Assembly: GCA_950295325.1 (NCBI GenBank)
Contig: OX485806.1
Coordinates: 12,708,001 to 12,772,000 of the forward strand
Direction of reading: 5' to 3'
DNA length: 64,000 bases
Origin: Polytrichum commune
Taxonomy: Eukaryota; Streptophyta; Polytrichopsida; Polytrichales; Polytrichaceae
Made by a program: the position numbers and the translations under genes. Positions 5,016 to 27,304 of this stretch are shown piece by piece. Below the pieces are notes generated by a model. The model worked only from the letters and a program-made list of their open reading frames with translations. It ran no database searches and had not been told where the DNA came from. Each line of letters starts with the position of its first letter. The first letter of the stretch is position 1.

Positions 5016-6319
5016 ATATGACAATGACTCAAACCAAACAAATTCATACAAAATTGCTGATTTCACACAATGAATCCATTAGTACAGTCCGCAACTAGAT
5101 GAGAAGCAAGCACATGCTTGAAATTTTGGTGATATCATGATCTCCCCAATACAATCTCAAAGCACAGGGAAGGGATGGGATGGCACGCCCCTCATTCATG
5201 AGAACACACACACCACATTCAAATTAATTTCACAAAAAGCTACTAAGCTCAAATTTATACTAACATCTCAGTCATAATTCCTATTTTTTCTAGTATTGAC
5301 TGTTTTCAATACCTAAATACGAGTTCAAGTTACAATTACATGCATACATGTGAGATGTGAATGGAAAAAGTTGGGTTCTTATTCTTTTGACTTGGTAGAC
5401 TTCACCATAGATTTGTTTTCAATGAAAGCATGTGAAAATCATTGGATAGGAGGATGCTTGGTCAGGAATTCATTGGTCTACATAAGGTGCTTCTTAAGAT
5501 AAGTCAAGTCTTTGTTGATAAGTCATATATAAGCAGATGATAGTTTTTGGCCTGTACGTATATAACAAAGGTTTGGAAACACATCAACCAGTGTGTAGGG
5601 AGGATTTGGCATAATCGGTCAAACTCCTAGTGTTTCCAATAAATAAAAAGTAAAAAGTAACGCATGTAGCTAGCTAGGTACCGGCGTGACTGTGAGCCCA
5701 TTAGTTTGTTGTTGATCACGGTCATTCGTGATGCAGCATGAGGTGTGATGCCTCTTGTGAGGTGGGCTTGTTTAGTGTACAAATTATTCTAGTTCATTAA
5801 GATGGTAGAATAGGTGTTTGTTTGTTTTCAAGTTTCCTTTTGTTTAGGATAAGGTATGTGAGGTATGTGATGGCATTTTGGTGGATATTTTTCATGAGGG
5901 CTTTGAAGGTTGGTTATGGATATTTAGGTTGGTAAGTTTGTTAATGGAGTGTTTGTGTATGGCGCCTCTTACCCCAGCTGTAATAGTAATAAGGGGGTTG
6001 GTTTTCCATTCATTGGTTTGTATGGTGTCGATTAGAGGGTCATATTTAGTGTGTTTATGTGTGAGGGCTTGATTGGGGAATCTATCGTGGTAGTATGCGA
6101 GTTCGATGAATTGGGTTGTGAGTGTGGGGGAAGGTGTTATTGGGGTTTGTGTGTGGTTTGGGGCTCCAAGTCCTACCGGTTCCATGATGATATCTTTCAG
6201 TTTTTCTTTACTAATTTAGGGTATATTTTACATGTTCTTCTAAATAGATGGGTATTTTTTCATGAAGTCTTGAACTTCAACTAGTTATTTCTCATACTCA
6301 ACCGTTTCACCTGTAACTA

Positions 6320-11476: not shown

Positions 11477-11484
11477 AGTTGGGG
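11477..11484. repeat. Left 8-bp target duplication of the hAT element
   Basis: AGTTGGGG directly before the TIR, repeated exactly at 12954-12961 directly after the other TIR. Confidence 0.93.
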
Positions 11485-11506
11485 CAGGGCATAAAATTGA
11501 CACCCT

Positions 11507-11634
11507 GGGGGGTGTATTTTGCTTCCTAGAGTGTCCTAGGACACCCAAATCTCAAACAGGGTGTCCCCGAGGACACCCAAAAATCCTACAAGGGTGTCCT
11601 TTTTACACCCAAAAAAAATTCAGGGTGTCCCCTG
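11507..11634. repeat. Subterminal GGGTGTCC/GGACACCC array, left side
   Basis: Several copies of GGGTGTCC and its inverse, some as near-palindromes (for example gtgtcctaggacac and gggtgtccccgaggacaccc), packed just inside the left TIR. In other hAT elements such arrays bind the transposase; that role here is inferred. Confidence 0.85.
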
Positions 11635-11838
11635 TTCTTGTAGGGCCTATCAGCGTATATGTTTGACAAAGTTTTTGCAAGTTTTTCTTTTTTGACACGC
11701 AAAAACTTGCACCAAAAAAAAATGCACGTCAATTGACACGCACATTCTAGAAATTGACACGTACTGTGACTTGTGAAGAAAAAAATCACACGTCAATTGA
11801 CACACTAGAAATTGAAATGACATGTATTACTTGAGTAC

Positions 11839-11845
11839 TATAAAG
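11839..11845 (+). promoter_or_regulatory. TATA-like box upstream of the transposase frame
   Basis: TATAAAG lies 141 bases before the ATG at 11986, within the element. Position and sequence fit a TATA box, but there is no transcript evidence. Confidence 0.3.
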
Positions 11846-11985
11846 TGCAGCTCAAGTATTCGGAAAACATAACAGTAGGAGAACTTCCTACACTCACTCA
11901 CATACTTAAGTTCAACTTTGCTCTTGCAATTTCCTTTGTAACCGGGAGCTAGGACGGTGAATGGAGAGCGAGACTAACTAGGAAC

Positions 11986-12723
11986 ATGGTGTATGAATAT
12001 GAGGATTTTGGTGCGGATACCAAATTTGTGGCACAATTTTTGGACATTTCTAGAGGTGGTGAGATCCATTTTCAAGACTCTACAGGAGTGGTGCATTCAC
12101 ATATATTGCATTATGCACCATTGCCTCATGCAATTGAGTTTGGTGGTGATGGTACCCTCCATGGGTGCAAGGTGATTGCACAGGCATATGTGGTTAAGGT
12201 GATAGAATCATTGCAGCAACGATTTCTTGATTTGAAGCTCTTCAATGCAGTTAAGCTATTTAGCCCTGTCTGTTTTTCAACAGACTTGACACTTCTTCAT
12301 CGAAATGCTCGTTTATGGCTTCAGAGTTTCATTGACCACTTCTGCACTAATGGAGGGAATCTTTTTGATGAGCGTGGTTTAAAATCAGAGCTTCGAGGTT
12401 TTTTGGATACACTTCATATTTCATGTGGTGGTCTTAAAATGCACCAAGCTTGGATGGTTTATTCTTCCAATTTGGACTATGTTGGAAGATATCCTCATAT
12501 GACAAAGTTGTGGCAAGTTGTTCTTGTAATTCCTGCTAGTACAGCTTCTTGTGAGAGAGGATTTTCTACTCAAAATCATATTAAATCTACTTTACGGTGT
12601 AGTTTGGTATTAGAGACTTTGGAAGCACAAATGAGAGTTGCAATGGCAAAAATCCCCATAGAGGCCATTGACTTTGAACAAGTATGGGTAAAGTGGTGTG
12701 CTATGAAAGGCCGCCGCTTGTAG
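11986..12723 (+). CDS. hAT transposase, C-terminal portion with dimerisation domain
   Basis: This 245-residue frame ends with the hAT C-terminal dimerisation region. Residues ~175-215 read VVLVIPASTASCERGFSTQN followed by HIKSTLRCSLVLETLEAQMRV, matching the family signature (P.S.A.CER.FS....IK..LR..L....L..LM.V). Before it (residues ~85-120) is a segment with FNAVKLFSP, as in the ZNF862-like branch of hAT proteins. The N-terminal BED zinc finger and the first catalytic residues of the RNase H-like domain are absent, so it cannot be an active transposase alone. It could still dimerise with a full-length relative. The ATG at 11986 is the first in frame; an upstream exon cannot be excluded. The frame has no stop or shift, unlike every other transposon protein in the window. 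Confidence 0.88.
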   Translation: MVYEYEDFGADTKFVAQFLDISRGGEIHFQDSTGVVHSHILHYAPLPHAIEFGGDGTLHGCKVIAQAYVVKVIESLQQRFLDLKLFNAVKLFSPVCFSTDLTLLHRNARLWLQSFIDHFCTNGGNLFDERGLKSELRGFLDTLHISCGGLKMHQAWMVYSSNLDYVGRYPHMTKLWQVVLVIPASTASCERGFSTQNHIKSTLRCSLVLETLEAQMRVAMAKIPIEAIDFEQVWVKWCAMKGRRL

Positions 12724-12854
12724 GTTTGATTTGCATTGCAAGTTATGATATGTAGTGATTTTTTTGATTTTTAATTAAAATTTTGAAATGATATTATATA
12801 TTTTTCAAAATTGTACCTATTTTGACCAAAAAATTTTTTTAAGAGAAATTTATG

Positions 12855-12920
12855 AGGACACCCAAAAATTGGAGCAGGGTGTCCTTGGGACACCCAAAAT
12901 TTGGGACAGGGTGTCCCCTG
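12855..12920. repeat. Subterminal GGACACCC/GGGTGTCC array, right side
   Basis: Mirror counterpart of the left array: ggacaccc, gggtgtccttgggacaccc and gggtgtcccc in succession inside the right TIR. Confidence 0.85.
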
Positions 12921-12953
12921 GAAATTTGGCTAGGGTGTCAAATTTATGGCCTG

Positions 12954-12961
12954 AGTTGGGG
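12954..12961. repeat. Right 8-bp target duplication of the hAT element
   Basis: AGTTGGGG, identical to 11477-11484. Confidence 0.93.
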
Positions 12962-24717: not shown

Positions 24718-27304
24718 GTGTCCTTCACTTTGCCTCCTGAAGATCATGGTCATGTGAATGTCTTAGAGAATTTGCTTGTTTTAGGGTCCAAGCTTCAAAT
24801 AGGAACCATGTACATGAAGCAAGAAATGCATTATGTGGACGGTGATATCTCGAAAACAATCTTGCTACATAAAAACATGAGTAAAGATGGTCATTTTTGG
24901 ATTTTGGATCCAAGGTCATTTAGAGTCATAGGTATTTTTGATTCTCAAGTTCAAGCATCCACTGTTGTACTAACAAATAATTAATGCATATCCATGGTCA
25001 AATTACTTATCGTGGTCAACATCAAGAAAGAACCAAGTGATGATATTGTTCTTCTACTCTTGGATTTGGATGATGATGTTTGTCTTGTTGTTGATCTTTT
25101 TGATACAATGTCTTATCCTTTTAGAACTCCCACTCAACCTTTGATTTCATAAAATCCCTCACAAGACCACTATGCATGAAACTATCTCACCATGGATTTC
25201 TTTCTCCCTATCCATCTCTTCATTATTATTCATCTTCTTTAGGTTTGAGCATTATTGATGCATTGAAATTGACAAAGTCTAAGAGAAGGTTTAAGTATGA
25301 TTTTACCATAGTTTATTTTGACAACATAGATGTGTGTGCCGTGAAGCACTTGCGACCTTTTTTAATGGTGGTGTTTTATTTGTGTTACTGCGAATATCTA
25401 TGGGTGTTCCTAGTACATATGGCCATACTATGAATGACATGGATAATATGTATGATGGACATCCTTGGTGCATAATAAAAACGAAATATATTAAAAAAAA
25501 TTGGACTTTCTTTTAAGTGTTCTAATTGTGTTGGTCATTTGTAGTGTGTAAACAATTTTTTTCATTGATATGTATTGTAATGGAGGTGTCCCAACTACAC
25601 CAACTTGATTGGATTGACTCCTATTTCATTTTTGTGGGAGATGTTGCCCAAAAGAATTAAGATTGGAATGTAAGATATGTCATTCTACACTAGTATGTAT
25701 TGCGTTATGTCATGCTCTCATAATATATGTCCATTTCATATTCCCTAAGATACTGAGAATTTGTCTACATCTTGGTGTTCATAAACATCCTATGTCAAAT
25801 TATATATGTTGTGAGTCACTTGATATGGCTTTCCAACGTGTTGCCAATGTGGTCATGAAAACACCCATTGCCAAGAGCGTTGCTATAGTAATGGCAGCGA
25901 ACAAACAATTATTTGCATACTATCTTCTCAAATCTCCATCAAACAATGAAGAACATTTGGCAGATTTGTCCTTGGAGGTTGTCATGGATAAATTCATTGT
26001 TCTTGCTTCTCCAAATTGTCATAACTTTGTATCGGACTCCAAGCGTTTTATTCATAGTGGAATGAGCATGATAGATAGTATCGTAGCGCTTAATAACCAT
26101 TGGGGCTTCAAGTACGTCCATGATAGCATTTTTTTGACGCAGTCCAAAGATAAAGGATTTGTCTTTAAAATGTTAGTAGATCTTTCAAGGACTAGTGTGG
26201 ATCGTGTTAAGCATATGCATGTTGGAAGAGATATGAAGAATTTACGGACAATGTTTGACCACGTCAAATGTCCAAAGGACTGGACCACCCTAGCATGTCA
26301 TGTGTACAATAGCATGTATTGTAAGGTACTGACCATTATATATTGTGACATGCAGTCTGAAGATGGCGCAACTCAAACTCTCTTTTGGAAAACTTGAATT
26401 TTGATGGATAATGGAGTGTCGATTATAGGCAAGGGGATGGCCATATGAGTCTTATAAGTGCATCACCACTATGTATTATGCAATAACATCTAATTTGAGT
26501 ATCCATGGTAATTACAATCTACTGTATTTTGTGTAATGTTTGCATGATATAACTTTGCATGAACATGCAAAGACACAAACGTGTAACCTTGCAAAGACGG
26601 TGCACAAGAAGTGCCTCCAGCAATCCCTAAACAACATGATTTGTCTATACAAGTGATAGTGGTGGATTTGATATGGGCAATCATGTAAATTGCAAATTCT
26701 AGGTTGTACTTGAGAGGTGGTTCTATCGGTAAAGGCCTTAATTGTGTGTCCTTGATATTGAAGGTTGTTGCTAGGTGTGGAGATCCAAAGCTACTGGCAA
26801 ATACCATGAAGTCCTAGCTAGGGTGGAATATCTCAACACTAGGGATTGTGCTTTGGAGGGGTTTGAGTTTTTTGGATCTACTAAATCGAAGCTTAATATG
26901 CCATTAGATTTAATTGCAATTCACATTGATCTGACAAAGTGAACTACTCAATTCGTCACCCAAATACTAGGGTTGAAAGGGCATGCGTAAACGAGTCTTT
27001 GAAGTATGTAGAGCATGGTGTGACATATACCACATCGGTGTTAAAGATTGATTGTCCTTCTCCCCACTGGCACATTGCAAGATTGCCACCCAACTTTGCC
27101 AAAAGATGTTGGGCGATGCAAGCCAATCCCAAGACTTTGTACAATGCCAAAGTCAAAACTTGCAAACATGGCACCCTTGATTCTATGTACAAGGGGTTGG
27201 AGAAAGAGTATCACTCCACCAACAATGTGGAGTACAAATTTTGGTTTTTCCATGACGACTTGAAGTGTTGTGTAAATGGTCGTTTAGTATTTGAGTCATG
27301 CTAA
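24718..27304 (+). pseudogene. Decayed transposon-type gene of an uncharacterised plant family
   Basis: A run of plus-strand coding pieces. The 88-codon frame at 24718-24984 is followed by worn sequence with SLGLSIIDALKLTKSKRRFKY (25230-25290). A cysteine-bearing segment comes next (25500-25580), with KCSNCVGHL in a shifted frame. Then a 244-codon open frame (25663-26397) contains CKICHSTLVC, HLGVHKHPMSN, AIVMAANKQLFAYYLLKS, ASPNCHNFVSDSKRFIHSGM, MFDHVKCPKDWTTLACHVYN and IIYCDMQSEDGATQTLFW. After a shift, about 26645-26940 stays in one frame with point stops (LDIEGCC, then TGKYHEVLARVEYLNT, then KSKLNMPLDLIAIHIDL), and 26939-27304 ends the series. From memory, very similar text occurs in repeated proteins of mosses and other seed-free plants, thought transposase-like; I cannot check this. 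At least four frame breaks make it non-functional. A TGCCCC-type element begins 43 bases downstream. Confidence 0.55.
25663..26397 (+). pseudogene. Longest open segment of the decayed transposon-type gene
   Basis: This is the best-preserved part: 244 codons without a stop, ending ...LFWKT at a TGA that looks like a one-base slip, since the next frame continues as NFDG. The ordered Cys/His pairs near its start (CKIC, CIALCH) suggest a zinc-binding region. The later DHVK..DWTT..CHVY and CDMQSED blocks look like the conserved core of a nuclease-fold transposase, with acidic residues available for catalysis; that reading is inference. The start at 25663 is only where the frame opens, because coding similarity extends upstream in another frame. 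Confidence 0.5.

Follow-up and report, generated by a model that had tools for sequence, protein, structure and literature searches.

The element at 11485-12953 of the window (the whole 64,000-nt stretch of Polytrichum commune DNA analysed here) is, at a probability of about 0.93, a non-autonomous, internally deleted hAT derivative of the Ds-del-like kind, whose 245-codon open reading frame is a passive remnant. It is an ordinary element, correctly read, and no new mechanism is involved. A frame that is tidy, open and matched by a domain can thus still be a passive remnant, for which youth, geometry and one microhomology deletion are enough. With its 41 junction clusters and just two long copies detected, each of them broken, the family forms a clear hAT deletion-derivative series, useful for the study of how such deletions form.

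Structure of the window element

The element is 1469 bp long and lies between two AGTTGGGG duplications (TSDs). Its features are the following:

11477-11484, no strand: left TSD AGTTGGGG, identical to the right TSD (sequence comparison)
11485-11506, + strand: left 22-bp TIR, exact in 88 of 114 copies
11538-11632, no strand: left subterminal GGACACCC / GGGTGTCC repeats (repeat comparison)
11839-11844, + strand: TATAAA, presumed promoter element of the parental transposase gene (sequence reading)
11961-11981, + strand: short upstream ORF, ATG to TAG, 7 triplets (sequence reading)
11986-12723, + strand: 245-codon C-terminal hAT transposase remnant (ORF listing, domain search)
11987-11989, no strand: deletion junction with TGG microhomology, from left arm to C-terminal coding part (copy alignment)
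12478-12633, + strand: Dimer_Tnp_hAT match, residues 165-216 (Pfam search)
12553-12555, + strand: E190 codon, aligned to Hermes residue 572 (alignment)
12856-12940, no strand: right subterminal GGACACCC/GGGTGTCC repeats (repeat comparison)
12932-12953, - strand: right 22-bp TIR, exact in 98 of 114 copies
12954-12961, no strand: right TSD, 8/8 identical to the left TSD

A sequence-only reading had reported the 8-bp duplication, TIRs matching at 20 of 22 positions, a TATA-like box and an unbroken 245-codon frame with a C-terminal signature, and each of these is confirmed here, the signature as a Dimer_Tnp_hAT match at E 2.5e-8. The 8-bp TSD, short CAGGG-like TIRs and a CERxFS C-terminal region mark the element as a hAT; TIRs that start in this way are typical of the superfamily. 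A complete DDE transposase is absent from the element, its N-terminal two thirds being gone here and retained in the long copies; non-autonomous hAT members lack a complete transposase by definition, and the absence is hence no bar to hAT membership.

The TATAAA is kept in 46 of the 114 copies. There is one upstream ATG, and the short upstream ORF ends 4 nt before the main ATG (11986). The shortest left arm in the family (145 bp) nearly covers the left subterminal repeats. Elsewhere in the window, a 259-codon opening (25618-26397, + strand) gave no Pfam match at E 0.1.

Copies, ends and age of the family

The assembly searched comprises 408 Mb in 64 contigs. Allowing up to two mismatches, the left-TIR pattern gave 115 + 115 genome matches, right ends included, which exceeds chance since the reversed pattern gave 0 + 0 matches over the whole genome at the same threshold; the right-TIR pattern with at most one mismatch gave 53 + 69. 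From 119 fetched loci and the window we recovered at least 114 complete copies with both ends, a lower bound since fetching took the TIR matches listed rather than every copy. Seven of the 119 loci held no two-ended element, among them the long copy on contig C5 (L104, L105), and one of two copies at L078, without a left end, was not counted. Matches on contigs C24 and C54, with identities and spans equal to those of C3 and C1 copies, were left out. The TSDs are 8/8 identical in 101 of the 114 copies; a score of 1/8 at L084 looks like a one-base mis-anchored end and was kept unchanged.

We considered the 20/22 TIR identity as a clock and rejected it: the left/right difference at TIR positions 5 and 12 is identical in 113 of the 114 copies, so that both mismatches are family-wide and no measure of age. 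With 21 noisy columns excluded, the right arm of the window copy is 0.63% divergent from the family majority (rank 22 of 114; median 0.87%). At plant substitution rates of 7e-9 to 1.3e-8 per site per year, this divergence would put the age of the window copy at about 0.5 to 0.9 million years. The earlier description of the copy as recent therefore holds, but does not set it apart, as the whole family is recent.

Two pairs of copies have unusual arrangements. L059 (C2:60929519-60930858) and L075 (C2:60909595-60911243) are inverted copies about 18 kb apart, whose duplication halves are swapped (CTTGGGTT/GTGTTGTC and GTGTTGTC/CTTGGGTT), which is the mark of inversion by recombination between both copies. 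L078 (C1:35477950-35481400) consists of two copies of the deletion class that we denote group A, head to head with less than 30 bp between the matches; the match of its minus copy starts at element position 41.

Long copies and the missing N-terminal part

The deleted part was sought with a 413-residue query from the N-terminal side of the long copy on contig C2. Among the best 101 of 556 candidates, which were scored, the full query was matched at 90% identity or more in two places, C2 itself and C5:33420227 (93%), with at least five further partial matches at 89-95%. The genome-wide TIR search and N-terminal count suggested by the sequence-only reading thus yield at least 114 copies, with the full N-terminal part at two places among the matches listed. 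Related genome-search counts are likewise lower bounds (150 of 1572 and 40 of 1045 candidates scored).

The C5 copy carries a zf-C17orf113 finger (E 1e-9). Its left arm is collinear with positions 1-505 of the window element at 96% identity, the coding part then follows, and collinearity resumes from element position 503 about 4.9 kb further on. The copy is interrupted by an insertion near element position 561; the remainder lies about 16 kb away and contains one stop. The long C2 copy, of 3946 bp, has two in-frame stops. Among the matches listed (101 of 556 candidates scored) we saw no uninterrupted long copy. The long form of the family is a zf-C17orf113 finger with a transposase of about 750 codons.

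Deletion junctions across the family

Mapping 113 derivatives (L001 is excluded from junction counts, and included in the 114 copies and in the 107 frames considered below) gave 49 raw junctions, which merge within 8 bp into 41 clusters, 27 of them single-copy. The right breakpoint lies inside the coding part in 39 of the 41. Left arms measure 145 to 743 bp and right arms 217 to 2636 bp. On the joint coordinates of the long copy, 3877 bp separate the start codon from the left end and 230 bp the stop from the right end. C-terminal codons survive largely because of this geometry: where a deletion spares a few hundred bp on either side, the N-terminal part is gone and C-terminal codons remain.

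Geometry does not explain everything. Right arms exceed left arms (medians 798 versus 326 bp over the 49 raw junctions, p 1.4e-8, the junctions being not all independent), and the E190 codon is kept in 106 of the 113 derivatives. C-terminal retention is above the symmetric-deletion expectation, which counts against the passive-remnant account and is not fully explained; a right-end cis requirement or shared junction ancestry could be the cause of this excess. The motif is dispensable in the moving copy itself, since the 9 of 114 copies that lack all or part of it also have TSDs.

The right-arm tree is nearly star-like and does not separate the deletion classes. Premature stops recur across classes, the stop at codon 137 occurring in 5 copies, and different classes also have in common the loss of some 22 bp from the right subterminal repeats. 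This pattern suggests exchange between copies, recurrent mutation or repeated junction formation.

In a 2290-bp derivative, L077 (C1:37123175-37125464), the coding start and finger region are joined in frame to the C-terminal motif, with one in-frame stop inside the finger region. In its layout this copy resembles a KP-type derivative more closely than the window copy does.

The junction of the window copy and its ATG

In group A, left-arm position 642 is joined to the coding part just before codons VYEYE. Relative to the long C5 copy, group A lacks about 4.8 kb and the window copy about 4.9 kb. The window copy and L002 (C3:4783411) share the group A right breakpoint and lack a further ~135 bp between two TGG triplets. 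It is through this additional loss that the window copy gained an in-frame leader ATG: the junction fuses the leader AACATGG to the coding frame, giving the leader plus the last 244 codons, whereas in group A the equivalent ATG runs into a stop (shown for L073). L002, which alone shares this junction, is cut short by a stop at codon 137. The right arms of the two copies do not group in the tree; the shared junction possibly reflects one event followed by transposition, or two deletions at one microhomology.

In 8 of the 114 copies (L075, the window copy, L049, L087, L026, L098, L077 and L009) a frame that starts with ATG and exceeds 100 codons runs over the motif. In the largest classes, with right breakpoints near 5425 and 5408, the motif frame mostly has 94 codons from an internal methionine. 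A TATA-like box together with an ATG-started frame of at least 245 codons over the motif occurs among the 114 copies only in the window (245) and L075 (288), and the L075 frame ends in altered residues.

We propose the following origin. A long hAT copy would have lost its internal part, producing a right breakpoint of the group A type, and a further ~135 bp would then, presumably in this order, have been lost at the TGG microhomology. The element now measures 1469 bp and consists of TIRs, subterminal repeats and a 5' leader that continues in frame into the last 244 codons. The copy would have moved by borrowing the transposase of a long copy through its own ends, with the reading frame carried along as a passive leftover that shows no sign of being maintained for a function. 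That the frame is still open follows from the youth of the copy and from the position of its coding end, which adjoins the right terminus.

What the fragment encodes

Set against the relative L120, the window frame covers roughly the final third of the transposase. Dimer_Tnp_hAT is the one Pfam family that it matches, over residues 165-216 and with 34.1 bits where the cut-off is 21.4. Hermes E572 is the residue of interest here, which we take to be the catalytic glutamate, third acid of the DDE triad. Residues 167-213 of the frame line up with Hermes 549-595 (chain 8edg), ranges of equal length, and the printed alignment, to 6dww, is gap-free, which places E190 at Hermes 572. Sequence alone gives E 0.58-0.75 for Hermes, a weak match that an unrelated aldolase outscored. 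E190 is invariant in all 15 aligned sequences, the window included.

In PMC4890040, the DDE triad of Tgf2 is given as D228, D295 and E648 and its dimerisation domain as residues 153-213. We infer from a mutagenesis primer quoted in that source that the motifs match and that E190 corresponds to Tgf2 E648. The frame thus appears to carry the final stretch of the catalytic fold, third catalytic acid included, and not a free-standing dimerisation domain. The sequence-only reading had taken the copy to keep only the dimerisation half of its transposase, without catalytic parts. The N-terminal truncation and the fairly recent origin stand; the claimed lack of catalytic parts conflicts with E190, and the dimerisation residues known from Tgf2 belong to the portion that is lost.

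L120 has an uninterrupted 760-codon frame (mean pLDDT 63.2), whose model matches Hermes 4d1q over 196-727 (Z 21.1, rmsd 4.2, 401 residues) and retroviral integrase cores at Z about 8 to 9, the short chains being spread over 258-731, as an RNase-H fold split around an insertion would give. The isolated window fragment reached a mean pLDDT of 53.5, and a structure search with the model of this fragment found nothing at or below E 0.001. With a same-size alignment for L120, 16 of 17 ten-residue blocks over 511-680 average 83-94, and pLDDT around the motif (681-740) is 52-77, little above the fragment. The isolated fragment is thus modelled poorly, and the comparison is suggestive only, as the fragment and L120 are different proteins.

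At 7 of the 15 loci of relatives the best match to the family TIRs had 6/22 mismatches, in stretches that need not reach the element ends. One relative, L133 (C1:69973272-69973991, about 49% identical), likewise has a C-terminal frame that begins with ATG and spans 245 codons, inside an opening of 278, with no adjoining N-terminal match among the matches listed (101 of 556 candidates scored); the C-terminal-frame pattern may recur in a second family.

Selection on the frame

Single-copy changes in the frame comprise 115 nonsynonymous (N), 43 synonymous (S) and 6 stop changes, against 124.6, 43.4 and 9.2 expected from the mutation spectrum of the same arm, for a normalised N/S of 0.93 (bootstrap 0.68-1.34). 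Extending the count to changes present in up to three copies gives an N/S of 0.98 and 13 stops, where 13.9 are expected. The frame is shifted by 16 of the 24 distinct coding indels. The frame is broken in 45 and open in 62 of 107 copies, the 7 of 114 with little or no coding part being excluded. Two observations count against the passive-remnant account: single-copy stops are below expectation (6 versus 9.2), and the coding part has slightly fewer single-copy changes per site than adjoining sequence has (0.0026 against 0.0033). Within error the frame evolves neutrally, a family-wide result that cannot speak for one young copy.

The open frame as a sign of use was accordingly rejected, given the neutral substitution pattern. 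The dN/dS comparison that the sequence-only reading had advised does not bear out constraint. That reading had named as its refutation a frame broken in every other copy, with a neutral pattern and no transcript; the pattern is indeed neutral, and 62 of 107 frames are open, as a divergence of about 1% would allow.

Comparison with known systems and alternative explanations

As described in PMC3260210, maize Ds-del elements are internal deletions of Ac, and maize B73 holds 903 elements with Ac/Ds ends, three of which resemble Ac, all with small rearrangements, the others being much shorter. The likeness to the Polytrichum family is close: both are hAT with an 8-bp TSD and shared termini, both show internal deletion of a long transposase copy, and both have few long copies among many shorter ones. 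The window element has the Ds-del feature itself, having lost the interior of a longer element whose ends it shares. The Polytrichum family differs in belonging to another hAT branch (zf-C17orf113 finger), and mobilisation in trans is presumed here. By structure the window element is best placed with Ds-del-type deletion derivatives, again with mobilisation in trans presumed. Hermes (PDB 4d1q, 8edg) and Tgf2 (PMC4890040) share the CERxFS-type motif with the third catalytic acid, and differ in that roughly the final third of the transposase is all that the window copy retains.

KP, the apt precedent for a repressor role, is a P-element derivative whose truncated transposase retains the N-terminal DNA-binding part. 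In the window copy the DNA-binding part is absent, the only match being Dimer_Tnp_hAT, and the family-wide test gave no selected frame. According to PMC5427502 and PMC6917496, KP and Har-P of Drosophila are, like the family here, short derivatives amplified from a long element, which is a P element and not a hAT.

The alternative that survives best, very improbable as it is, is repression by titration, in which the numerous ends of the derivatives would compete for transposase with no protein involved. The at least 114 complete copies with conserved ends agree with this, and titration by P-element deletion derivatives is described in PMC5427502; yet such an effect would follow from copy number and not from the window copy, and among the matches listed there was no uninterrupted long copy to titrate.

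Slightly less probable still is a KP-like mechanism, in which the 245-residue protein would be produced and would repress related hAT transposases through dimerisation. The window copy does have an open, ATG-started frame behind a TATA-like box, and PMC5427502 describes KP as a repressor of P activity, but the window copy is without the N-terminal parts, no selection was seen, and both the zf-C17orf113 finger and the N-terminal dimerisation part known from Tgf2 fall in the deleted portion. The only other copy with the junction, L002, is broken, and the poor fragment model relative to L120 is suggestive in the same direction. The idea of a truncated-transposase repressor, raised in the sequence-only reading, gains nothing from an N/S of 0.93, 45 of 107 broken frames and ATG-started frames in just 8 of 114 copies; it appears unsupported, as nothing beyond the open frame and the TATA-like box speaks for it. 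We consider it just as improbable that a chance microhomology deletion made the window copy the sole uninterrupted fusion of leader ATG and whole C-terminal part (1 of 114 complete copies), whose fragment would poison the assembly of its relatives' transposase too recently for a selection signal.
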